DNA from: an uncultured Bacteroidales bacterium
GTDB taxonomy: Bacteria > Bacteroidota > Bacteroidia > Bacteroidales > Muribaculaceae
Assembly: GCA_947573135.1 (NCBI GenBank)
Contig: CANPDU010000021.1
Coordinates: 1-53,976, forward strand
Direction of reading: 5' to 3'
DNA: 53,976 nt
Of this stretch, positions 3,916-23,921 are shown piece by piece. The translations under genes were made by a program, and so were the position numbers. A model generated the notes under the pieces. That model made no database searches. It saw only the letters and a list, made by a program, of their open reading frames with translations, and was not told the origin of the DNA. Every line of letters begins with the position of its first letter. Position 1 is the first letter of the stretch.

Positions 3916-4043
3916 CTGCCGCCGTTCACTCTCTGCCAACGGCCGGCCTACGAAAGATTCGATAGCAGCGATAGCCTGTCCTTAACGCCGCCTCAGGCCG
4001 CCCCGGCCTCCTATTTTCAAATATCATTCCTCACAATATGCTG

Positions 4044-4098
4044 CAAAACATATCAAATAATTTGCAGACATACGCTTCTGATTATTATTTTTGCGAAA
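4044..4098 (+). promoter_or_regulatory. Cassette promoter, copy 1 (TTTG-N21-TATTTTTG)
   Basis: TTTG at 4061-4064 and TATTTTTG at 4086-4093 are exactly 21 bases apart, the Bacteroidetes promoter layout. The stretch AAAACATATCAAATAATTTGC just before and including the -33 element recurs at 7612-7631 and, with a few changes, at 4753-4773. It drives the lipoprotein gene starting at 4121. Confidence 0.7.
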
Positions 4099-4120
4099 TA
4101 TACACTATCAGATATTTGCC

Positions 4121-4678
4121 ATGAAAGACCTGTCTTACAACCACGATGACGCCATCAGAAAGATTCTTGCTTACTATATATTTATATCATTAGTATTGTT
4201 ATCTTCGTGTGTAAATAAGAATTTAAATCGGCCTCATGAAGTCGGGACATGGGTAAGTGTAAGTGACACAGCACATACAAGCCCCTATTTTCTAATCGAA
4301 GATTCCATATATGTCGGCTATATCGCACTTATTGACGAATCTCCCCGTGATTTTTTTCTGGATTGCAAGCACAACTGTCCTGACTTTGCACCACCATTGA
4401 CAGATGTAGATATTGCATCTTTCAAAGTGAACATCAATAGTGATGATGAACCATATGCAAAAGATAAACGGTTTGTATATTATCCTATTGACAGCCCGAT
4501 TTTTTTCGACGGTTATAACGGTGGCGGAGAAATATATTGCGGAGACATATCAATAAAAGACGCTTATCCGTTGTCATTCCAATATATCGGAAAAGGCTAT
4601 GCAATAGATAAAAATTTCATGTACTACAAAGGGAAAAGGATTGAATGGAATGATAGTATTATTACCACTTTGCCGTAA
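4121..4678 (+). CDS. Putative lipoprotein with DKNYY-like motifs
   Basis: A 185-residue predicted lipoprotein. After 16 polar residues comes a hydrophobic stretch ending in a lipobox-like LVLLSSC at about residues 25-31, so the mature protein would be anchored at the outer membrane. Two motifs, AKDKRFVYYP and AIDKNFMYYKGKRIEW, resemble the DKNYY repeat family of unknown function. The ATG at 4121 is chosen because the -7 promoter box ends at 4093; a frame from TTG 4091 would begin inside the promoter. The first 18 codons are odd: they match the short open frame at 9277-9324 (39 of 48 bases identical), so the leader was probably acquired by recombination. Function unknown; it may be an orphan immunity protein of the adjacent Rhs island. 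Confidence 0.65.
   Translation: MKDLSYNHDDAIRKILAYYIFISLVLLSSCVNKNLNRPHEVGTWVSVSDTAHTSPYFLIEDSIYVGYIALIDESPRDFFLDCKHNCPDFAPPLTDVDIASFKVNINSDDEPYAKDKRFVYYPIDSPIFFDGYNGGGEIYCGDISIKDAYPLSFQYIGKGYAIDKNFMYYKGKRIEWNDSIITTLP
4127..4174 (+). repeat. 48-bp segment repeated at 9277-9324 (copy 1)
   Basis: Aligned without gaps, 39 of 48 bases match 9277-9324. Both copies read DL-Y-HDDAIRK-LA in the same frame. Here it forms the N-terminus of the lipoprotein; at 9277 it ends an open frame with a stop codon. Confidence 0.75.
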
Positions 4679-4811
4679 AATTAAAAAGAAAAACTCCCCT
4701 TAGAAACAACAAAAATTAATCAATCCCTTCAAATCCCTGATTTTTATGTTATAAAACATATGATATAATTTGCATCTCAGTCTGATAATGCTTTATCTTT
4801 GCGAAAATTCA
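4677..4811 (+). repeat. Cassette-spacer repeat, copy A, with promoter
   Basis: About 135 bases closely match 7538-7669, from AAAATTAAAA through AACAACAAAAATTAATCAAT, TCAAATCCCTGATTTT, ATGTTATAAAACATAT and down to TTATCTTTGCGAAAAT. It contains a promoter with TTTG at 4769-4772 and TATCTTTG at 4794-4801, spaced by 21 bases, which would serve the secreted protein gene at 4835. The internal ATGTTATAAAACAT is an inverted repeat that could be an operator or a weak hairpin. Confidence 0.82.
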
Positions 4812-4834
4812 AAAGGATATCAACATCGTAGGCC

Positions 4835-5668
4835 ATGAATAATCGTATTATAGTAATCTTATTATCCATCATAGGCTTATATCTGCCGTCACAGGCAAAA
4901 ATCAATATCCCGGAAAGCCTGACAATTCAACAGATTGAGGCAAAATATACGCGTGTACAAGGATTGTTTAAAGGTTTTGAATTTTCCAAGTCCAAACGAA
5001 TTCCAAGCGAATGCATTGATCTGTTTGAAGTCTCGGATTCTCTGTTTAAAAGCGACTGGATGAATGATACACTATTTATGTGTATAACAGATTACAAAAT
5101 CAACTATTATGCAGATTACAACAAACTCATCCATTATGAATGTAAAGATGTATTATTACATCATAAAAATCGCACGTTTTATATTGAATATAGAAAAGAG
5201 AACAGAAGTATATATACTCCAGATTCAATCGACCGTAGGTTCTGTGGTAAGAAAACACTTTTAGGATGCTCGCAACAAATATTTCGTAATACTATATTTT
5301 CGTGGGATCTTGATTCGATTGCAAACATGTTGACATATTCTTCAGGTTTTGTAATATTTGAGCAACCGGAAGGTCCTAGACCGACTGTAACTTGCAATAT
5401 GATTATAATCAGAGACAGAGAGATCACTCAATGGCAAAATATTATTATTGATCCACAATTATGCTGGTACAAGCCGTATGATATTATAAATACCTCTGAA
5501 CTTCTCGAATATTATAAGAAGCAGGTTATTGAAAACTGTTTGGAAAGACCAAATCATTACGCAGAAGAAGGTTTGGATATAGATAAAGTCTTGGCTCGAA
5601 AATATTGGAGAAACAAATCAAAGTGGAGTTTTAAAAATTTGATGAATAAGATCCTTAAGAAAAATTAG
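4835..5668 (+). CDS. Secreted protein of unknown function, island family A
   Basis: A 277-residue protein with a clear signal peptide (MNNRIIVILLSIIGLYLPSQ followed by AKINIP), so it is exported. No known domain is recognised. The segment TIFSWDLDSIANMLTYSSGF (about residues 155-175) resembles SIIYQWDLDAVADFFRYGM in the 8628 gene, with similar beta-rich sequence on either side, so the two may belong to one diverse family. The ATG follows the copy A promoter by 33 bases. Its stop codon is 2 bases before the next gene's ATG (5671), suggesting an operon with the following two genes. AT-rich codon use differs from the housekeeping genes. A role as an immunity or adaptor protein for Rhs-type effectors is only inferred from the location. 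Confidence 0.7.
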   Translation: MNNRIIVILLSIIGLYLPSQAKINIPESLTIQQIEAKYTRVQGLFKGFEFSKSKRIPSECIDLFEVSDSLFKSDWMNDTLFMCITDYKINYYADYNKLIHYECKDVLLHHKNRTFYIEYRKENRSIYTPDSIDRRFCGKKTLLGCSQQIFRNTIFSWDLDSIANMLTYSSGFVIFEQPEGPRPTVTCNMIIIRDREITQWQNIIIDPQLCWYKPYDIINTSELLEYYKKQVIENCLERPNHYAEEGLDIDKVLARKYWRNKSKWSFKNLMNKILKKN

Positions 5669-5670
5669 TG

Positions 5671-6453
5671 ATGAAACGTTTTCGCGGCACACTTGTTATT
5701 TTGGGAGGTGGTTGGCGGCCTACTATGCTTCGTTGTGTCATGCTGATTTTGATTTCACTTGTTGGTGTCATTTCGGTTCACGCAAAATGTAATCAAGACG
5801 CGCATTATGCAGAGTACAGAGAAATTTATGATACTTTTATTGGGGACCATTTGTATAAAGGATGTTTTCAGATTCGTTTTCACGCAGATATAGATTTATT
5901 TACAGATAGCGATGACGAGGAAATGGATTGGTCATTTAACGCGATTCACTTTCATGTGGATGTGGACGGATATGATTTTTTTGATAAAATGATTGACATC
6001 ATCAATGGCAGTCTTGGCGCACATCATAAAAATTCCACTTACGATATTGAAGTCGAAGAGCTTTTTACTTACGGCGATGATGAGATTGAGGATGAATTCG
6101 TTACACTATCGCCGACCGGTTCTTACAGATTTGAGATAACAGAATATCGCGAGTTGATGACTACTGATTTATTCGTTTTCTGTCAGGATGGACTGACATT
6201 TTCATCTCAGAAGTTTCTGTACCCGATTTTTCGAAAAATTAAAGACTGGTATATAACCGACTATTGGCATTTTGACTTTGGAAAGGAATACTTCCAATGG
6301 ACATTCGAGGTGTTTTGCGGTCAAATTGTCAAGGCTGAACTATTGATAGAATACGGAACAGATGAGGTTACTGTGATTAATCTTTTGGATGACAGTCCGA
6401 TGATAGGCTATCAGAAGTACTTAAACCGTAAACGACAATTTTTAATCCGATAG
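5671..6453 (+). CDS. Secreted acidic protein, island family B (paralogue 1)
   Basis: A 260-residue exported protein. The hydrophobic stretch MLRCVMLILISLVGVISVHA, starting at an internal ATG (5725), looks like a complete signal peptide. The true start may therefore be 5725, with GGGAGGTGG upstream at 5702-5710, rather than 5671. The mature protein is acidic and aromatic. The segment GSYRFEITEYRELMTTDLFV plus the following region to PIFRKI aligns with GSYYITVNMSQPDVYGSFKF through GFIRKL in the next gene, and later WTFEVFCGQIVKAE aligns with WRFVVIDGELKNAI. The two are thus distant tandem paralogues, a pattern common for immunity genes in polymorphic toxin loci. Function unknown. Confidence 0.68.
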   Translation: MKRFRGTLVILGGGWRPTMLRCVMLILISLVGVISVHAKCNQDAHYAEYREIYDTFIGDHLYKGCFQIRFHADIDLFTDSDDEEMDWSFNAIHFHVDVDGYDFFDKMIDIINGSLGAHHKNSTYDIEVEELFTYGDDEIEDEFVTLSPTGSYRFEITEYRELMTTDLFVFCQDGLTFSSQKFLYPIFRKIKDWYITDYWHFDFGKEYFQWTFEVFCGQIVKAELLIEYGTDEVTVINLLDDSPMIGYQKYLNRKRQFLIR

Positions 6454-6457
6454 AAAA

Positions 6458-7312
6458 ATGATGTCATTGATCGAATTAACTTTTTTCTGCGTAGCCTCTT
6501 TGGCCAATATGCCGGCTGATAAAGTTTTCGAGATTATCTCAGAACAGAATGTCTGTGTCGGAACGCCGACTGTCGAAAAATCCTGGGCAGAACTTGATTT
6601 CTCAACTGAACACTATCGCTATATGGACGATATCACCGATATCATTGAAAAAACTGTGCCTAAACTACCTTACGACACATTGGCAAAGTATATATACGAC
6701 GGCAATTTCTTTATGGAAGTATTTGCTATAGAGAAATCGACGGCATCTGACAGTTGCAGCTTTATATCATATGATGATAAGCGCAATTATAAACTCAATC
6801 CTATTAAATTGACTGACGGCGGATCTTATTATATAACAGTAAATATGTCGCAGCCCGACGTTTACGGCTCTTTTAAATTCAAATATGGTGATTTCAATTT
6901 TGTATGCGATCAGTATATTGACGGATTTATCAGAAAACTTAACGGAATATCATTCCTTACACCTCGTTATCGCGTCCTGTATCAGTTGGAACTTTATTAT
7001 GACGAAGATTTCGCCGATTATGACCAATATTCTGACGAAGAGTTAGATGATATGATTGATGACCCCGGTTATTTTGGAGACTGGAGATTTGTTGTTATTG
7101 ACGGAGAATTAAAGAATGCCATATATTATGGGTGTTCTTGCGAGTATGATTTTATTTCAGATATGGATATTAATTGTTATAAATTTTTCAGACAAACACC
7201 ATATCCCAAAAGTAGATACTCGACTGCCGATCAATGGCAAAGCCGTTTAAATCCCTATAGTAAAGACGGTCATTGCATAGACTCTTATGTTAATTTCAAA
7301 GAACTTAAATAA
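6458..7312 (+). CDS. Secreted protein, island family B (paralogue 2)
   Basis: A 284-residue protein four bases downstream of its paralogue. The start MMSLIELTFFCVASLANMPA reads as a signal peptide. The body is acidic (YDEDFADYDQYSDEELDDMI near residues 190-209) and shares a middle and late region with the preceding gene, as described there. No catalytic motif is visible. It is the last gene of the presumed 4835-7312 operon, and the 380 bases that follow contain repeat and promoter sequence. The function is unknown. Immunity to an Rhs or other contact-delivered toxin is a reasonable guess from context but is not shown by the sequence. Confidence 0.68.
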   Translation: MMSLIELTFFCVASLANMPADKVFEIISEQNVCVGTPTVEKSWAELDFSTEHYRYMDDITDIIEKTVPKLPYDTLAKYIYDGNFFMEVFAIEKSTASDSCSFISYDDKRNYKLNPIKLTDGGSYYITVNMSQPDVYGSFKFKYGDFNFVCDQYIDGFIRKLNGISFLTPRYRVLYQLELYYDEDFADYDQYSDEELDDMIDDPGYFGDWRFVVIDGELKNAIYYGCSCEYDFISDMDINCYKFFRQTPYPKSRYSTADQWQSRLNPYSKDGHCIDSYVNFKELK

Positions 7313-7447
7313 GTAGCGGAAACAAGATGAGAAATACGATCGATCATAATAATAAACTTATTCTGATCGCAGCTATTTATATGTAAAAAGTATCTTCACA
7401 ATAAATTTAGCTGTATAACCGGCTACATGAACAATCTATTTTTATAA

Positions 7448-7490
7448 TCTTGACTTTTAAACAACAATAACATAGACAAATACCGGCTGT
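7448..7490 (+). repeat. 43-bp spacer repeat, copy 1 (second copy 9419-9462)
   Basis: ATCTTGACTTTTAAACAACA continues with ATAACATAGACAAATACCGG and CTG. The same segment with three or four substitutions is at 9419-9462. The two copies bracket the Rhs tip and its overlapping partner gene. Confidence 0.8.
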
Positions 7491-7537
7491 GTCTTTTTCC
7501 CATATTCCCTAAAAAAACCTCATTCAGCATACTTATA

Positions 7538-7669
7538 AAATTAAAAGAAAAACTATCCGGTAAAACAACAAAAATTAATCAATTCTTTCAAATCCCTGAT
7601 TTTATGTTATAAAACATATCAAATAATTTGCATTGCGGTGTAATAATGCATTATCTTTGCGAAAATCCG
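7538..7669 (+). repeat. Cassette-spacer repeat, copy B, with promoter
   Basis: Near-duplicate of 4677-4811. It contains TTTG at 7627-7630 and TATCTTTG at 7652-7659 with 21 bases between, and the same AACAACAAAAATTAATCAAT and ATGTTATAAAACATAT blocks. It drives the Rhs tip gene at 7691. Confidence 0.82.
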
Positions 7670-7690
7670 ACCATTAAATCACCTGCCGCA

Positions 7691-8695
7691 ATGTTCTCAC
7701 TCCTCAGCTACTACCTAAGTAACAACCGCAACGATGCCGACTATTACGCCTACGGACTGCCGGTTCAGGGTTCAAATGTCAGCGATCAGGATCCCTACCT
7801 CTACAGCGGCAAAGAATTTTACTCAGTCAAAGGCTTAAATATCTATGACTTCAATGCCCGAACCTATGCCCCCGATATAGCGCGCTTCATGCAACCCGAC
7901 CCCAATGCCGGCGACTACCATTGGCTATCGCCCTACGCCTACTGCGGCGGCGACCCGATAAACTTTGTAGATCCGGACGGACAAGTCCTATATACTACAT
8001 ACAATGGCGTTAATTATTCATGGGAATATAGGAACGGGAAATGGGGCTTTTATAATTCCAGTGGAAATCTTTTTGACGGAGATGATTCGTTTATTACAAA
8101 TCTGGCTTCAAGTCTTGAAACTCTTTTGTCGGGAGAAACAGGGAAATCATTAGTTACAGAATTAGTCAATTCTAAAAAGTTTATTAAACTAAAGGACGGA
8201 AGTAAACTGAAAGGGGATATAAAAACAGGAGCCAATGACGATCTGACTAACATCTATATGAATTATAATGATCCTGTTGGAGCAATGACAACAGAAGGTA
8301 TGGACTTCAATTCAACCATGAACCTTGCCCATGAATTGGCTCATGTTCAATTAGGCAAAAAATATGATGAACAATGGGACTTAACTGCTGACGGTTCTGA
8401 AATTAGTTTAGGTCAAGTAGATAAGTCTGAGTTATATGCAACTCACGTTGAAAATAAAATCAGAGCAGAGCAAAATGCTCCTCTCAGAACCCATTATGGA
8501 TATAAAAAAGGAGTGGCGTACGGTCGGATAATCGATAAATCAGGAAACTTTAGTTTGTACTATACTGCAAGCGAAAAACTGATGTTTCCCGTAAATAAGT
8601 ATCCATTTATTGCATTCAATTATTGTCATGAGGTCTTTAATTATTTTTATTACCGCAGCCATCATATTGAGTATTTACACTTGCGGCTTCGCTAA
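7691..8695 (+). CDS. Orphan Rhs tip with M91-like HEXXH peptidase toxin domain
   Basis: A 334-residue protein in two parts. Residues about 20-98 are an RHS repeat-associated core: AYGLPVQG, YLYSGKEFYSVKGLNIYDFN, ARTYAPDIARFMQPDP, LSPYAYCGGDPINFVDPDGQ. The variable C-terminus carries HELAH at residues 214-218, followed by ATHVENKIRAEQNAPLRTHY, which fits the M91 (NleD-like) zinc peptidase family often found as an Rhs-linked effector. No long Rhs shell precedes it, so this is a detached C-terminal cassette with its own promoter. The ATG at 7691 is chosen because the -7 box ends at 7659; the frame extends to 7628 but that is promoter sequence. The last 23 residues overlap the next gene and look like read-through. 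It may be a displaced toxin awaiting recombination, or a small effector itself. Confidence 0.8.
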   Translation: MFSLLSYYLSNNRNDADYYAYGLPVQGSNVSDQDPYLYSGKEFYSVKGLNIYDFNARTYAPDIARFMQPDPNAGDYHWLSPYAYCGGDPINFVDPDGQVLYTTYNGVNYSWEYRNGKWGFYNSSGNLFDGDDSFITNLASSLETLLSGETGKSLVTELVNSKKFIKLKDGSKLKGDIKTGANDDLTNIYMNYNDPVGAMTTEGMDFNSTMNLAHELAHVQLGKKYDEQWDLTADGSEISLGQVDKSELYATHVENKIRAEQNAPLRTHYGYKKGVAYGRIIDKSGNFSLYYTASEKLMFPVNKYPFIAFNYCHEVFNYFYYRSHHIEYLHLRLR

Positions 8696-9272
8696 ACGAA
8701 ATTTCAATCTTCCCGACAGCTGTGTGTATTACAATCCTGTTTATGATACGGTGTCATTCACAAATTTCGACAAGGAGACTGTGGAACTGGATCAGTGGGA
8801 CAAGAACCGAATTCCACAAATCCTTTCCGCACTTGATTCTTTAAAAATTTTAAACAGCAAATCCGATACCGTTTTCGTTGTACAGTTTGACAGACTCGAT
8901 TGCAAGCCATTTTTTTATTTGAAGACTCGTAAAGGCACTGTCCTCGAGCGTTTCTCAAGATGCGTACCGGCCTCATATCAGTTATCCCCGGATATAATTA
9001 GACAGGCATATCATTTTGACAGAAATCCGTCAAGACGTTTTGGCCACGAGATTATTGAGAATCCTGATTCTGTCTTGCTCTCAATCATATATCAATGGGA
9101 TCTTGATGCAGTAGCTGATTTTTTCAGATATGGAATGGTAGCGGATCATTCAATAGATGGTTATAGATGTATATTAAGACAGAATGAAATTGTCGATATT
9201 CAACGATTTAGTGGCCTTAATAATCTTTATGGTCGAATACGGGTTGGTGCGGATGTATACCTTATATGGTGA
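8628..9272 (+). CDS. Secreted protein overlapping the Rhs toxin; candidate immunity protein
   Basis: A 214-residue protein with a signal peptide (MRSLIIFITAAIILSIYTCG, then FAKRNF), so it should act in the periplasm or outer membrane. It overlaps the Rhs tip gene by 68 bases in another frame, the tight arrangement seen for toxin-immunity pairs. The motif SIIYQWDLDAVADFFRYGM resembles TIFSWDLDSIANMLTYSSGF in the 4835 gene. No known domain is recognised. The frame also allows ATG 8610, but 8628 starts the signal peptide more cleanly. If it is an immunity protein, its exported location would imply that the M91-like toxin acts in, or is neutralised in, the periplasm. That is inference from context only. 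Confidence 0.7.
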   Translation: MRSLIIFITAAIILSIYTCGFAKRNFNLPDSCVYYNPVYDTVSFTNFDKETVELDQWDKNRIPQILSALDSLKILNSKSDTVFVVQFDRLDCKPFFYLKTRKGTVLERFSRCVPASYQLSPDIIRQAYHFDRNPSRRFGHEIIENPDSVLLSIIYQWDLDAVADFFRYGMVADHSIDGYRCILRQNEIVDIQRFSGLNNLYGRIRVGADVYLIW

Positions 9273-18173: not shown

Positions 18174-19139
18174 TTATGATAATTCAAGCATTTTTTCTAT
18201 CGGGCGGCGCGCGGCTTCGGCCACTTTATCATCGACCGTTATTTCAGGCGTTTCGTCCCGAAGACATCTGTACAATTTCTCAAGAGTGTTAAGTTTCATA
18301 TAGCTGCATTCGTTACATGCGCATCCGGCTTCTTCGGGTGGAGCCGCAATGAAACTTTTATCAGGACACTGTTTCTTCAGTTCATGAAGAATGCCGCTTT
18401 CCGTTACCACTATAAATTCTTTAGCATCGTCGTTGCGTGCATAATCGAGCAATGCTGCCGTAGATCCTATCTTGTCGGCCAGTAGTCGCAATGATTTCTT
18501 GCATTCTGGATGAACCAGCACTTTAGCTCCCGGATGCTCTTTTTTCAGTTCAATAAGTTTTTCAGTCGAAAACTGTTCATGTACATGACATGCCCCGTCC
18601 CACAGAACCATATTCCGACCTGTGATCGAATTTATATAATTGCCGAGATTACGGTCAGGACCGAATATTATTTTCTGATCCTTAGGAAATGTCTCCACTA
18701 TTCTGACAGCATTGCCTGATGTGACAAGCACATCTGTGAGAGCCTTGACTCCAACAGATGTATTCACATATGATATTACTGTGTGGCCGGGATATTTCTC
18801 TATGAAATTTTTGAATTCTTCAGCATCGCAGCTGTCGGCAAGTGAACAGCCGGCCTCCATATCGGGAATGAGCACCTTTTTATCAGGGCAAAGGATCTTG
18901 GCTGTCTCTCCCATGAAATGAACGCCGCAGAGCACTATTATATCGACATCCTTCAGTGTCGACGCATATCGCGCCAGAGCAAGCGAGTCACCGATATGAT
19001 CGGCTACATCCTGAATCTCCGGACGCTGATAATAATGGGCGAGCACGACAGCTTTTTTCTCCTTTTTCAGTCGTTCGATTTCTTTGATCAGGTTTTCCTG
19101 TTCTTTCGGAGTTTTGTCACCCCTGTTTTCGACATTCAT
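18174..19139 (-). CDS. nadA: Quinolinate synthase
   Basis: A 321-residue NadA, which condenses iminoaspartate with dihydroxyacetone phosphate to give quinolinate for NAD synthesis. The three [4Fe-4S] cysteine regions are visible: CGVHFMGETAKILCPDKKVL, the middle ECKKSL stretch, and GCACNECSYMKLN near the C-terminus. AHYYQRPEIQDVADHIGDSL at about residues 35-54 is the usual N-terminal signature. nadB and nadC are not in the window. It heads the leftward nadA-leuS-rdgB-porZ block and lies directly beside the AT-rich candidate origin region. Confidence 0.97.
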   Translation of the reverse strand: MNVENRGDKTPKEQENLIKEIERLKKEKKAVVLAHYYQRPEIQDVADHIGDSLALARYASTLKDVDIIVLCGVHFMGETAKILCPDKKVLIPDMEAGCSLADSCDAEEFKNFIEKYPGHTVISYVNTSVGVKALTDVLVTSGNAVRIVETFPKDQKIIFGPDRNLGNYINSITGRNMVLWDGACHVHEQFSTEKLIELKKEHPGAKVLVHPECKKSLRLLADKIGSTAALLDYARNDDAKEFIVVTESGILHELKKQCPDKSFIAAPPEEAGCACNECSYMKLNTLEKLYRCLRDETPEITVDDKVAEAARRPIEKMLELS

Positions 19140-19530
19140 TTTATATTATATAAAAATTAAGTCTTAAAAAATTATTTATACCAAGAAGAATAATAGATGT
19201 TGATAGCTGTAATAACTTTTCAGATGATTATTTGCTTTTATGGCTTATTGAATTATCACTTTACGATTTAAATACTTTATCAACATTCTTAGCATTTGAG
19301 TTTCAATCTGTTCTATTACTTATCAACACTATGTTTATAATATGCAAAGTTAATAAATTTATTCCATTGTTTATATCAACATAGCTCAAAACTATGTTAG
19401 TAATGGCAATGTAAGAATCATGACGATTCAAATTGTTTATACTGCTTTTTTATTATAAGGCCGATATAACCTTATTTACAAAAAAAATTGTTTGAAACTT
19501 TTCTGATACTTATCAACGCTTTTCAACATG
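19140..19530. other. AT-rich gene-free region with DnaA-box cluster: candidate oriC
   Basis: There is no gene in these 391 bases. Two perfect TTATCAACA 9-mers (19277-19285, 19320-19328) and four one-mismatch versions (19198-19206 on the minus strand, 19373-19381, 19510-19518, 19520-19528) are clustered here. TTATCAACA differs by one base from the classic DnaA box TTATCCACA. AT-only tracts at 19141-19190 and 19428-19495 could be unwinding elements. The neighbours rnpA-yidD, a parS-like site 24 kb away, xerD and a change of GC-skew sign fit an origin-proximal location. No dnaA gene is present, so this is a candidate rather than a proven origin. Confidence 0.6.
19345..19352 (-). promoter_or_regulatory. 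Possible nadA promoter -7 box
   Basis: Minus-strand TAACTTTG matches TAnnTTTG. No clear TTTG lies at the expected distance, and the leader to nadA would be about 200 bases, so support is weak. Confidence 0.3.
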
Positions 19531-20385
19531 TTATTGACATGTTCTGGCATTGTCTATGCGTAGCTTTATCTCATCTATATTTAGATTGGATTCATCGCTT
19601 TCTGTATAAAGCAGTTGAGCGGGTACAACTCTGACTGTTTCTTCATTGAAATGCTCTCCGAATGACAGGGCTATGCCGTGACCTAATAATTGTTCGGCTG
19701 TTTCTTTTTTGCCTCTGAAACCATGGATGATCCAAAGTTGGTGAGGATTTAATTCTTTCTTTATCCTGATTATATCTTCAGTAGATTTTACAGAGTGGAT
19801 GATAAGAGGTTTTTCTGTTGTTTCACTGATGTCAATGTGCTTTCTGAATATGTATTCCTGCAGTTCTTTGTCGCCCCCTTTGAGACGGTCAAATCCACAC
19901 TCGCCGATGGCTTTTACGTTATTGAGCGCAGCCTGAGATCTCACTTGTTCTATAGCAGCATCTGCTTCTTCCCTACTCATTTTTTCAGTTGACCAGGGAT
20001 GAACACCAATACTGTAAAAACCGACTTTAGGTACTTTTTCATAAAAATTGAGATTAACTATTCTGTCACCGTCGGCAGCGTCTGTAAAGTTAGACAAATG
20101 ATGGTGTATGTCCTTGAAATCTTTTATATTTTTATCCGTGACTTTTCCATATGGCGGCACAGGATCATATCCGTATCCGCCCCACGGATTGCATCGCCCT
20201 ATTCTTTTAACTGCGAGCCAAAATCCTTTAGCCGGTCCGTGAACGCGCAATGCTTCGAGCGCATATTGACTGCATGTAGGTGTGTAGCGGCACGTAGCCG
20301 GGAACAAAGGTGATATAGCGTGTCTGTAAAAATGTATCGGCAGACTAATCAGAGTCGACGCTGCTTTGCTCAGTGTCTTTTTCAT
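19531..20385 (-). CDS. YidD-TatD fusion protein
   Basis: A 284-residue fusion. Residues 1-78 are a complete YidD ([54 protein letters not shown]), the small inner-membrane-associated factor that helps YidC insertion. Residues about 90-284 form a compact TatD-type metal-dependent hydrolase. Its likely ligands are all present: H94 and H96 in DIHHHL, E162 in GECGFD, H197 in IIHSVKS, H221 in IIHGFRG and D264 in TESD. The linker is short ([15 protein letters not shown]). There is no stop or frameshift between the parts. The start overlaps rnpA by 41 bases. In other Bacteroidetes the two are usually neighbours, so fusion probably arose by loss of the intervening stop. Confidence 0.88.
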
Positions 20386-20776
20386 CGTATATTTTGTGAA
20401 GTATTTTGCAGACAGCTTTTTCTATAGTCCGGTAGTCTTTGAGGCTGTCGGCCACATAAATCATGGCAAGATCTATATTGTTTTCGATAACGGTTTCATA
20501 ATCATGACGGCTTAGTCTGTAGGCCTCTCTTACGCGACGTCTCATTTTCACTCTGTCAACGGCGTGACGGATACGTTTTTTTGGTATGGATATAAGAAAC
20601 TGTACCGGCGATCCATCGTTACGGTCTCTGTTGATTCTCCACACTGCACGCAGAGGATAGGCCATCACTGATTGAATTTCGTCCGCCGACGTAGCATCAG
20701 CCCCACGGCTGAAGAGCTTGTCTATTGCCGTGGGGCTGCATAATTTATCAGATTTATTTAATCCGAATTTTTTCAC
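20345..20776 (-). CDS. rnpA: Ribonuclease P protein component
   Basis: A 143-residue basic protein that assists the RNase P RNA in tRNA 5' maturation. The family signature appears as [20 protein letters not shown] followed by RRVREAYR. The start overlaps the hemD stop by 4 bases (ATGA-type coupling), and the end overlaps the yidD-tatD start by 41 bases. Usually rpmH precedes rnpA; here hemD does, an arrangement seen in Bacteroidetes. A perfect 11-bp hairpin lies within codons 14-26. Confidence 0.94.
20699..20737 (-). promoter_or_regulatory. Perfect 11-bp hairpin inside the rnpA 5' coding region
   Basis: AGCCCCACGGC (20699-20709) pairs exactly with GCCGTGGGGCT (20727-20737) across a 17-base loop. 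It lies in early rnpA codons, just downstream of the hemD-rnpA overlap, where it could slow or gate translation. It may be only a coincidence of codon choice. Confidence 0.4.
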
Positions 20777-21558
20777 ACTGCCTCGGATTCTGTCTGTGGT
20801 TCGGTTTCGATTATCGGATTGGTCTTTGACAAATACAGATCAAGTGCGCCTGTCATCGAAGTAGTTTCGGGAGAGGGTGCTCCGATATCGAGTCTGAGAC
20901 CGGCATCTTTTACTGCCTGAGCTGTAGTGACGCCGAATGTTGCTATCTTGATATCACCCTGCTTAAATTCAGGGAAATTTTTCATAAGTGATTCTATGCC
21001 CTGAGGACTGAAGAACACAAGCATGTCATAGTCAAACACTTCTTCCGGAGTGAAGTCGTTGCTGACTGTTCTGTACATTGCGGCGCGGGTGAAGTTGAGA
21101 TGATTGTCGCTGAGAATTGACGCGTCATTACCGTTGTTGACATCCGATACTGTAAGCAGATACTTTTCATTTTTGTGTTTGAGCATCGATGGCAGCAGGT
21201 CGGCGAGTTTACCTGTTTTGGACGCAAATATTTTTCTTTTGCGATAGATGATATATTTCTGCAAATAATTGGCTATAGAATCACTCGTACAAAAATATTT
21301 CATCGTATCGGGTATGTTGACTCTCATTTCTTCACAAAGTCTGAAGAAATTGTCTATGGCTGTCTTTGCTGTAAATATAATTGCCGTATGTTCTCCGATA
21401 GATACTTTTTGCTGTCTGAATTCTTTAGCGCTTAATCCTTCAACTTTGATAAAAGGTCGGAAAACTATTTCCACGTCATATTTTTTTGCTATTTCATAAT
21501 ACGGCGATTTTTCCGATGATGGTTGAGGCTGCGATACTAATATTTTGTTTATTTTCAC
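20773..21558 (-). CDS. hemD: Uroporphyrinogen-III synthase
   Basis: A 261-residue HemD-type protein that cyclises hydroxymethylbilane to uroporphyrinogen III for haem and related tetrapyrroles. The family is poorly conserved. Recognisable here are the opening KINKILVSQPQP, IIFTAKTAIDNFFRLCE (about 58-74), DMLVFFSPQGIESLMKNFPE (about 180-199) and IATFGVTTAQAVKDAGLRLD. It lies 40 bases after the DUF4271 gene and overlaps rnpA by 4 bases, within a leftward operon. No other hem genes are nearby, and many gut Bacteroidales have incomplete haem pathways, so its physiological role is uncertain. Confidence 0.85.
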   Translation of the reverse strand: MKINKILVSQPQPSSEKSPYYEIAKKYDVEIVFRPFIKVEGLSAKEFRQQKVSIGEHTAIIFTAKTAIDNFFRLCEEMRVNIPDTMKYFCTSDSIANYLQKYIIYRKRKIFASKTGKLADLLPSMLKHKNEKYLLTVSDVNNGNDASILSDNHLNFTRAAMYRTVSNDFTPEEVFDYDMLVFFSPQGIESLMKNFPEFKQGDIKIATFGVTTAQAVKDAGLRLDIGAPSPETTSMTGALDLYLSKTNPIIETEPQTESEAV

Positions 21559-21598
21559 AATTATATATTATTTTACTTAAAAAATTCACCTTGCTTAT

Positions 21599-22459
21599 TC
21601 AGATAAGTAAGGCGAGTTTTAATACATAAATTAATGGTATAATTTCCAAGGCACAAAGGTACAAAATAAAATAAACGAGGGAAAATATATTGTTATAAAA
21701 AATACTAAAGCCCTTGCTTATAAAAGTAAGACGTGCCGTCAGATAGATGACCGCAGCGACTATGAATACAACCGGTGTGCTTTGTGGATAAAACAGTAAT
21801 ATCAGCGCCGGAATCATGAGTGCTATTCCGGCCAGCGATTGTGATGCGTTGAATGCGCGGAGCCATCTTTTACGGTCGTCGCCGGATGCAAATATATATC
21901 CTGTAAGATTGTATGCACAGACCTGAAATAAATAATAGCCTGCAAACAGACTGATATTTTTTATCAAGGTACTGAAATCATAGGCGTTTATGTCTGATTC
22001 TCTGCCCGCAGAGATTTTCAGACCGGCCAATATGATACCGCCGTAGATGACATACTGTATGAATGTCAGCAGTGTTAGACGTGTCTCATGGTTGGTATGT
22101 TCATCGAATGCGTTTTCACGGCGCTTGTTATTGCGCAGTTCGTCAGCAAATCTTATAATAAGTTTTCTGCATTCTTTGAAATTCAAAGATATGGCAACAA
22201 ACAGAACGACAATTATTGTCAGTATTCCTGAGTTTCCGTTTGTTGAGCCTTGTCGGGCCGTGCCTTCCAGTCCCGACTGCCAGTTATCGTCAGGCTGTGT
22301 AAGCGTAGGGGTCAGTTCTATACTGTCGCAGACTGCATTATCTGATGCCGTCATGTCAAACATTGCGGTGTCAAGCTTCATCACTGCCGCAGGCACGGCA
22401 GTCTCAGGTATGATTATGAATCCGCTGTCAGCGGGCGCTATGCTGTCGTTGGGCATCAT
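21599..22459 (-). CDS. DUF4271 integral membrane protein
   Basis: A 286-residue protein with a long soluble N-terminal region (about 75 residues, acidic) followed by about seven membrane helices, including GILTIIVVLFVAISLNFKEC and LAGIALMIPALILLFYPQST. This pattern and the gene order DUF4271-hemD-rnpA-yidD match the Bacteroidetes family DUF4271, whose function is unknown. It follows the LOG gene by 6 bases. A second in-frame ATG at codon 2 gives an equally good start. Confidence 0.82.
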   Translation of the reverse strand: MMPNDSIAPADSGFIIIPETAVPAAVMKLDTAMFDMTASDNAVCDSIELTPTLTQPDDNWQSGLEGTARQGSTNGNSGILTIIVVLFVAISLNFKECRKLIIRFADELRNNKRRENAFDEHTNHETRLTLLTFIQYVIYGGIILAGLKISAGRESDINAYDFSTLIKNISLFAGYYLFQVCAYNLTGYIFASGDDRKRWLRAFNASQSLAGIALMIPALILLFYPQSTPVVFIVAAVIYLTARLTFISKGFSIFYNNIFSLVYFILYLCALEIIPLIYVLKLALLI

Positions 22460-22465
22460 CGTTGA

Positions 22466-23041
22466 TCAGAATTTTGCGGAGAAATTTAGATTATTATTTT
22501 TCTGCATCGCTATATCGACAGCTTCATGCGCATCTGACGCTACAGACCATAGATTTCTGTGATCTTGTTTCATGAATTTTTGTTCTATAGCCGTATCAAG
22601 CATTTTAAGCAGGTTATCATAGTATCCGCCGACATTGAAAATGACTATATTGCCGTCATATAGCCCTAACTGCCGCCATGTTATTATTTCAAGCAATTCT
22701 TCGAAGGTGCCTATGCCCCCCGGAAGCGCTATCACTCCTCGGCTCATAGCTGCCATCAGTTCTTTGCGCCTGTGCATGCCGTCAGTGATTTTAAGTTCTC
22801 CCAGTCCGCGGTGATGCCATCCTCGATCGACCATGAACTGTGGAATCACTCCTATTGTCCGGCCTCCGGCTGCAATGGCCGCATCGTTGACGGCACCCAT
22901 GAGACCCATTGACCCGGCGCCTGTTATCAGTGTCTGGCCGCGGAGTGCTATTTCAGCGCCAAGTTTCTTTGCCGCACTGAAATATTCTTCGGCGACAGTA
23001 ACACTCGAAGCGCAATAAACCGTTATACCTTTTTCGATCAT
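22466..23041 (-). CDS. LOG-family protein (cytokinin riboside phosphoribohydrolase-like)
   Basis: A 191-residue Rossmann-fold protein of the TIGR00730/LOG family. The hallmark PGGIGTFEELLEIITWRQLG is at about residues 106-125, preceded by GGRTIGVIPQFM and RKELMAAMSRGVIAL. Members hydrolyse nucleoside 5'-monophosphates to free base and ribose phosphate; in bacteria the physiological substrate is often unclear. It is first in the leftward operon and faces pyrH across a 169-base divergent promoter region, with a TAATTTTG box at 23066-23073. Confidence 0.9.
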   Translation of the reverse strand: MIEKGITVYCASSVTVAEEYFSAAKKLGAEIALRGQTLITGAGSMGLMGAVNDAAIAAGGRTIGVIPQFMVDRGWHHRGLGELKITDGMHRRKELMAAMSRGVIALPGGIGTFEELLEIITWRQLGLYDGNIVIFNVGGYYDNLLKMLDTAIEQKFMKQDHRNLWSVASDAHEAVDIAMQKNNNLNFSAKF

Positions 23042-23065
23042 AATGATATGAGACTATGACTACTG

Positions 23066-23073
23066 CAAAATTA
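23066..23073 (-). promoter_or_regulatory. -7 box for the LOG operon
   Basis: Minus-strand TAATTTTG lies 25 bases upstream of the LOG start codon, in the divergent region shared with pyrH. Confidence 0.45.
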
Positions 23074-23156
23074 CAAACAAATCGCCGGAAAAACCGCTGT
23101 CAGGCCAAGATTCATAAGATTCACTCAAAAAATCAGTATATCTCGCATATTTTATC

Positions 23157-23164
23157 TATTTTTG
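23157..23164 (+). promoter_or_regulatory. -7 box for pyrH
   Basis: TATTTTTG matches the consensus and is followed by GCG, as in several promoters in this window. pyrH starts 47 bases downstream. Confidence 0.5.
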
Positions 23165-23210
23165 CGATAGATAATTTTTTTGAATACTATAAATAAATCA
23201 GCAGTAAACG

Positions 23211-23921
23211 ATGAGAACCCGATACAAAAGAGTACTTCTCAAACTCAGCGGCGAATCTCTTATGGGGCAGCAGGGTTACGGTATCGATACCGGCCGCCTC
23301 GCCGACTATGCGCGTCAGATAAAAGAAATAACCGACAATGGTGTTGAAGTTGCAATCGTAATCGGCGGCGGAAATATATTCCGCGGTCTGCAAGGTGCGG
23401 CCAAAGGTTTCGATCGTGTTAAAGGCGATCAGATGGGAATGTTGGCTACTGTAATTAATTCGCTCGCCCTCAGTTCAGCTCTCGAGGCTATAGGACAGCC
23501 TGCAAAAGTTCTGACGGCTATAAATATGTTTCCTATCGGCGAACAGTACAGCAAATGGAGAGCAATCGAGTTGCTCGAAAAAGGCGAAGTGGCAATCATT
23601 TCATGCGGTACGGGTAATCCATTCTTTACTACAGACACGGGATCGGCTCTCCGCGCTGTCGAGATAGAGGCTGACGTGATGCTCAAGGGCACGCGTGTCG
23701 ACGGAGTCTACACTGCTGATCCCGAAAAGGATCCTGCGGCTGTGAAATTCGACGAGATAACTTATGACGAAGTCCTTTCACGCGGTCTGAAAGTCATGGA
23801 TCTGACGGCCACAGCCCTGTGTAAGGAAAACAAGATGCCTATCGTTGTCTTCGACATGGATCATGTCGGAAATCTGGGTAAAGTAATTTCCGGCGAAAAC
23901 ATCGGCACGCTTGTTTATTAA
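23211..23921 (+). CDS. pyrH: UMP kinase
   Basis: A 236-residue amino-acid-kinase-family enzyme that converts UMP to UDP in pyrimidine nucleotide synthesis. Seen are RVLLKLSGESLMG at the N-terminus, VIGGGNIFRGLQG (about residues 50-62), the GDQMGMLATVINSLAL uridine-binding stretch, and GTGNPFFTTDTGSALRAVEI. Bacterial UMP kinase is typically a hexamer regulated by GTP and UTP. It is followed after 42 bases by frr, a common pairing that links nucleotide supply and ribosome recycling. Confidence 0.97.
   Translation: MRTRYKRVLLKLSGESLMGQQGYGIDTGRLADYARQIKEITDNGVEVAIVIGGGNIFRGLQGAAKGFDRVKGDQMGMLATVINSLALSSALEAIGQPAKVLTAINMFPIGEQYSKWRAIELLEKGEVAIISCGTGNPFFTTDTGSALRAVEIEADVMLKGTRVDGVYTADPEKDPAAVKFDEITYDEVLSRGLKVMDLTATALCKENKMPIVVFDMDHVGNLGKVISGENIGTLVY

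Follow-up and report, generated by a model that had tools for sequence, protein, structure and literature searches.

A probable chromosomal replication origin beside nadA in an uncultured Bacteroidales bacterium

Where does chromosome replication start in a bacterium whose draft genome (2.85 Mb, 56 contigs) carries dnaA on one contig (contig 15) and a candidate oriC on another? The DNA analysed here, referred to as the window, is the entire contig 21 with a length of 53,976 bp, and an earlier note made from its letters had proposed a gap upstream of nadA as the origin. This reading is supported by a cluster of predicted DnaA boxes, a nearby GC skew minimum and a layout that is kept in relatives. 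Positions 19140-19530 thus very probably represent the chromosomal origin, at which DnaA would initiate replication from the predicted boxes, with unwinding near nadA. According to PMC4755523, an oriC far from dnaA is common in the phylum Bacteroidetes, and the predicted oriC of Prevotella intermedia described there shares with the present site the phylum, the presence of several DnaA boxes where the skew changes and the separation from dnaA. No description of an origin beside nadA in Bacteroides or Muribaculaceae was found in titles or abstract openings, within partial coverage of the literature. A probable origin is hereby located for a group of gut bacteria, as needed for read-depth growth-rate estimates and genetic tools, and its layout provides a concrete search pattern.

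The box cluster and its gene neighbourhood

The stretch between the start of nadA (19139) and the stop of the yidD-tatD ORF (19531) measures 391 bp, lacks genes and consists of 76.5% AT, with 87% AT in positions 19140-19199. It holds seven boxes within one mismatch, i.e. two exact copies of TTATCAACA and five one-mismatch copies. The earlier note had correctly described the AT-rich, gene-free character, the two exact 9-mers and four of the one-mismatch copies; a fifth, not listed there, lies at 19332-19340 on the minus strand. The features are as follows, with offsets given relative to the TTAACTTTGC element.

18174..19139, minus strand: nadA, quinolinate synthase (Pfam NadA, E 4.7e-123)
19140..19530, no strand: candidate oriC, AT-rich intergenic stretch from nadA to yidD-tatD (AT content, box cluster, nearby skew minimum, layout common to relatives)
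19140..19178, no strand: AT-rich tract adjoining nadA, proposed DNA-unwinding element (position inferred from the rule of the basal unwinding system)
19179..19196, minus strand: six DnaA-trio-like triplets, CTA TTA TTC TTC TTG GTA, with a 1-bp spacer to the proximal box
19198..19206, minus strand: predicted DnaA box CTATCAACA, nadA-proximal, offset +147 (sequence match)
19277..19285, plus strand: predicted DnaA box TTATCAACA, exact, offset +68 (sequence match)
19320..19328, plus strand: predicted DnaA box TTATCAACA, exact, offset +25 (sequence match)
19332..19340, minus strand: predicted DnaA box TTATAAACA, offset +13, inverted partner of the 19320 box (sequence match)
19344..19353, minus strand: TTAACTTTGC element, directed at nadA (as in 87 of 130 upstreams, away from it in 0)
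19373..19381, plus strand: DnaA-box-like ATATCAACA, offset -28, outside the shared pattern (sequence match)
19510..19518, plus strand: predicted DnaA box TTATCAACG, far array, offset -165 (sequence match)
19520..19528, plus strand: predicted DnaA box TTTTCAACA, far array, offset -175 (sequence match)
19531..19539, plus strand: weak site TTATTGACA with two mismatches, offset -186, overlapping the yidD-tatD end (sequence match)
19531..20385, minus strand: single ORF with YidD and TatD domains (Pfam)
20345..20776, minus strand: rnpA, RNase P protein (Pfam Ribonuclease_P, E 2.2e-9)

Such a cluster had been called unlikely by chance, which is borne out by 2000 dinucleotide shuffles of the 391 bp: none reached two exact copies and none reached seven within one mismatch, at means of 0.013 and 0.40, respectively. 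When the contig was scanned in sliding 391-bp segments, each of the top 12 by box content overlapped 19140-19530. For the whole window, neither Rfam (at the gathering threshold) nor a tRNA scan gave any match.

On one side, the neighbours of the site are nadA and leuS; the opposite side carries the yidD-tatD ORF, rnpA, hemD, a DUF4271 gene and a gene of the lysine-decarboxylase family. The closest named NadA relatives, the best 80 of at least 587, are labelled as Muribaculaceae and other Bacteroidales, labels from which the family of the own genome is deduced. Among these 80 loci, rnpA/yidD-tatD adjoin nadA in some only (L003-L005, L060, L080 and L033, the last being the same contig as L003), and in L021 a TatD part stands beside nadA. 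The association of the origin with rnpA and yidD, as put forward in the earlier note, consequently describes the neighbourhood in this genome but not a recurring one: the conserved neighbour of the origin is nadA, and rnpA/yidD were rejected as the reason for its location.

Two further observations concern the surrounding genes. The YidD and TatD domains reside in one ORF of 284 aa (19531-20385), a candidate fusion. In addition, the region 4001-9000 is low in GC (34-38%) and includes an ORF (7628-8695) that matches Pfam Peptidase_M91 and whose N-terminal part may be an RHS-repeat core, which it resembles.

Recurrence of the layout and the skew switch

The boxes recur upstream of nadA in relatives. 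Being the best-ranked of at least 587 confirmed loci, the 80 named ones over-represent near kin. In this set, the density of exact TTATCMACA amounts to 1.75 and 2.68 per kb in the two 250-bp bins that precede nadA, and the remaining bins shown have 0-0.52 per kb. A motif-free count of 9-mers in 79 upstreams (one of the 80 loci was left out) was topped by GCAAAGTTA, the reverse of TAACTTTGC, which was seen 60 times vs 0.9 expected, and also returned TTATCAACA (82 vs 2.0) and TTATCTACA (43 vs 0.5). The TTAACTTTGC element points towards nadA in each of the 87 upstreams that carry it, at a median of 216 bp from the nadA start; the 130 upstreams surveyed, like the 116 genomes tabulated further below, include duplicate genomes, e.g. 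G024/G153, G056/G147, G062/G144 and G063/G155.

Eighty distinct upstreams, i.e. those that contain TTAACTTTGC and differ around it, were used to describe the layout. Box offsets relative to TTAACTTTGC recur at +12/13, +24/25, +67/68 and +146/147, and an array occupies positions near -165, -175 and -186. On average, an upstream has 6.06 boxes vs 0.56 in sequence shuffled with preservation of base composition only, and 66 of the 80 contain at least four. Six of the seven boxes in the window fall on shared offsets (-175, -165, +13, +25, +68, +147), and the two-mismatch site lies at -186. The conservation of the 9-mers in relatives, which had been suggested as a check on the origin reading, is hence evident from their fixed spacing. 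In an alignment with the three closest relatives listed, the TTATTAACTTTGC block and the proximal box region are kept, the +25 box shows at most one change and the -165/-175 pair shows small changes; none of the three has an exact copy of the +68 box (19277).

Beyond near kin the pattern thins out. In further families of the order, the exact box is present in 8 of 20 upstreams and absent in 12 (including one with a length of only 132 bp). Of 393 genomes of the order, 6 contain the strict composite motif of TTAACTTTGC, N and box, whose single occurrence in the own genome is the present site. The layout is therefore regarded as a feature of the family and nearer kin in the sample rather than of the order, for which no claim is made.

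The composition of the two strands switches at the same place. The cumulative G-C minimum of this contig, one of 56 in the draft, lies at 20233, and positions within 15 counts of it span 19527-23264. This agrees, as far as a draft assembly allows, with the predicted minimum at 19-25 kb and with the sign change that the earlier note had derived from five hand counts of G and C, all of which are exactly correct. Across 19335, third-position GC skew changes from -0.31 to -0.02 in plus-strand genes and from -0.02 to +0.27 in minus-strand genes, a rise of about 0.29 from left to right on both. Since the rise is alike in the two sets of genes, the change is replicative and not a gene-strand effect.

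In relatives, skew was sampled at 44 of the 80 best-ranked loci with 6 kb required on each side (strand-adjusted in 42), and at 72 of 76 control stretches drawn from four genomes only. Of 42 loci, 37 show a rise in strand-adjusted skew over the nadA start (40 of 44 by raw skew), compared with 42 of 69 control points (34 of 72 by raw skew). The rise does not increase with box count over these 42 loci (Mann-Whitney p 0.20): it is seen in 17 of 19 loci that have at least two boxes, in 12 of 15 that have a single box and in all 8 boxless loci. Two Bacteroides contigs of about 1.6 Mb (G119, G118) were sampled in 20-kb stretches, and their strand-adjusted skew passes at nadA from mostly negative to mostly positive values; in G119, the first and the last of the sampled stretches run the opposite way. 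Conservation at the skew switch thus extends through the relatives with the exception of the boxless upstreams of further families and of G054 and G035, two genomes of the same family in whose long contigs the sampled stretches lacked a box cluster at nadA and showed no clear switch in skew there.

Predicted initiation and alternative readings

The sites, their recurring layout and the skew switch are direct results of computation; from these we infer that DnaA binds, that the strands open, that the helicase enters and that replication initiates here. Three elements would be occupied by DnaA: the far array (19510-19539), whose sites follow one another at a pitch of 10-11 bp, the inverted pair formed by the 19320 and 19332 boxes, and the 19277 box. 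The proximal box at 19198 may be the point from which DnaA is loaded on the DnaA-trio-like triplets (19179-19196), and DnaA would then melt the AT-rich tract at 19140-19178. There, the helicase could enter, and two forks would leave, one towards each window end.

This sequence of events has a model in the basal unwinding system of Bacillus subtilis and other bacteria. According to PMC8287927, this system requires a DnaA box within 16 bp of at least three NAN triplets, with the central A on the bound strand and 3'-GAT-5' as the first triplet. Both settings share a DnaA box, a short spacer, at least three triplets and an AT-rich tract. Here, however, the box is TTATCAACA-like instead of TTATCCACA, the site adjoins nadA with dnaA on another contig, and opening is predicted. 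Towards nadA, the proximal box is followed by six triplets and then the AT-rich tract; with a spacer of 1, this is the longest NTN run among the seven boxes tested. The rule is loose in AT-rich DNA, as four other boxes at the site also reach 3-4 NTN triplets. TTATTCTTCTTG is identical in the four aligned relatives, and a box oriented like the proximal one stands 45-170 bp before nadA in 68 of 130 upstreams. Runs of at least three YTA follow 16 of 74 proximal vs 0 of 761 other boxes (shuffles 0.4%), and runs of at least three YTN follow 45 of 74 vs 19 of 761 (shuffles 15.5%). By their sequence, the triplets and the AT-rich tract beside the proximal box fit the rule in PMC8287927.

The TTAACTTTGC element introduces a second possible function of the region. 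Promoters of Bacteroidota carry a -7 element with the consensus TAnnTTTG. As TTAACTTTGC resembles it, a candidate promoter may be located there, about 214 bp from the nadA start, and a long nadA leader would then be transcribed through the origin. Conceivably, a regulator of nadA, and thereby of NAD synthesis, uses the 9-mers as operators around this promoter, with replication starting elsewhere. The promoter-like element directed at nadA amid the sites would suit such a regulator, which nevertheless leaves the skew switch at the same place unexplained. Up to 12 sites per upstream within 230 bp of TTAACTTTGC, their agreement with the DnaA consensus and the DnaA-trio-like triplets after one defined box further argue against operators, and this explanation is considered improbable.

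Marginally less probable is a DnaA-binding control locus in place of the origin, for which datA and DARS are known examples. Other DnaA-box pairs do exist in the own genome, e.g. upstream of a thymidine kinase gene, and TTATCAACA occurs 58 times in exact form. Yet, the DNA around each of the three other close pairs is about 55% AT and, per 500 bp, holds no more than 2-3 copies at one mismatch or less; having neither a cluster nor an AT-rich setting, they were rejected as origins, whereas the present site coincides with the skew minimum. Chance matches, for which an AT content of 76.5% might be held responsible, have a negligible probability, being contradicted by the shuffles and by the fixed offsets in 80 distinct upstreams.

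Just upstream of the thymidine kinase gene (Pfam TK), two head-to-head TTATCAACA copies, 2 bp apart, form a palindrome (G000:C5:82076-82095, corresponding to L236:10076-10095), which makes a DnaA-controlled promoter possible. G000:C51:4138-4157 holds a similar TTATCAACA palindrome, and in G000:C12:17332-17351 a pair is arranged in tandem.

DnaA recognition residues and box specificity

Returning to the origin reading of 19140-19530, the site carries the usual parts of a bacterial origin, arranged as in relatives; less ordinary are the recognition-helix residues of its DnaA. Escherichia coli oriC combines a cluster of TTATCCACA boxes with an AT-rich unwinding element. A box cluster and a proposed AT-rich unwinding element are shared by the present site, which differs in its boxes and neighbouring genes as well as in the cognate initiator. 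In an alignment with domain IV of E. coli DnaA (1j1v), the own DnaA reads R-N-Y-A-T where the E. coli protein has R-D-H-T-T. Hence, D433, H434 and T435 of E. coli DnaA align with N, Y and A, while an R aligns near the R399 loop, and the canonical set of box-recognition residues (R399, D433, H434, T435) is not retained.

Residue 433 was compared with box position 6 in 116 of the 117 genomes for which both parts were available (G128 was dropped for lack of a readable motif). With D (28 genomes), position 6 is A, C or T in 43, 2 and 0 boxes, respectively, and with N (19 genomes) in 38, 4 and 1. The corresponding counts are 64, 2 and 33 with T (47 genomes), 8, 1 and 10 with S (13 genomes), and 4, 0 and 18 with K or R (6 genomes); the remaining genomes have H (2) or A (1). 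Position 6 thus seems to shift with residue 433 across relatives, a suggestive trend in which, however, residue and lineage go together.

The comparison was repeated on a NadA tree of 95 rows, from which G157, a Bacillota-labelled bin, was also dropped. The box type changes seven times on this tree, giving five independent pairs on supported branches. For the class 'not D/N', on average 0.4 of the five pairs change the same way and 4.6 show no difference, and for 'K/R' the averages are 1.1 and 3.9; neither result is significant, as there are only five independent supported pairs, within which the residue class is mostly equal.

A tentative proposal, less likely than not, is that the DnaA of this family lost the near-universal Asp433 (here accompanied by His434 to Tyr and Thr435 to Ala) and that the origin boxes were rewired alongside, with initiator and origin changing specificity together. 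Position 6 would accordingly be A with D/N, mixed A/T with T/S and mostly T with K/R at 433. If this link holds true, these bacteria would offer a natural series for testing a joint specificity change of an essential initiator and its sites.

The bin left out of the tree is an observation of its own: its locus (L091) combines a Bacteroidales-like nadA and origin boxes with a Bacillota label and a differing DnaA in the same genome, which is perhaps a mixed bin.
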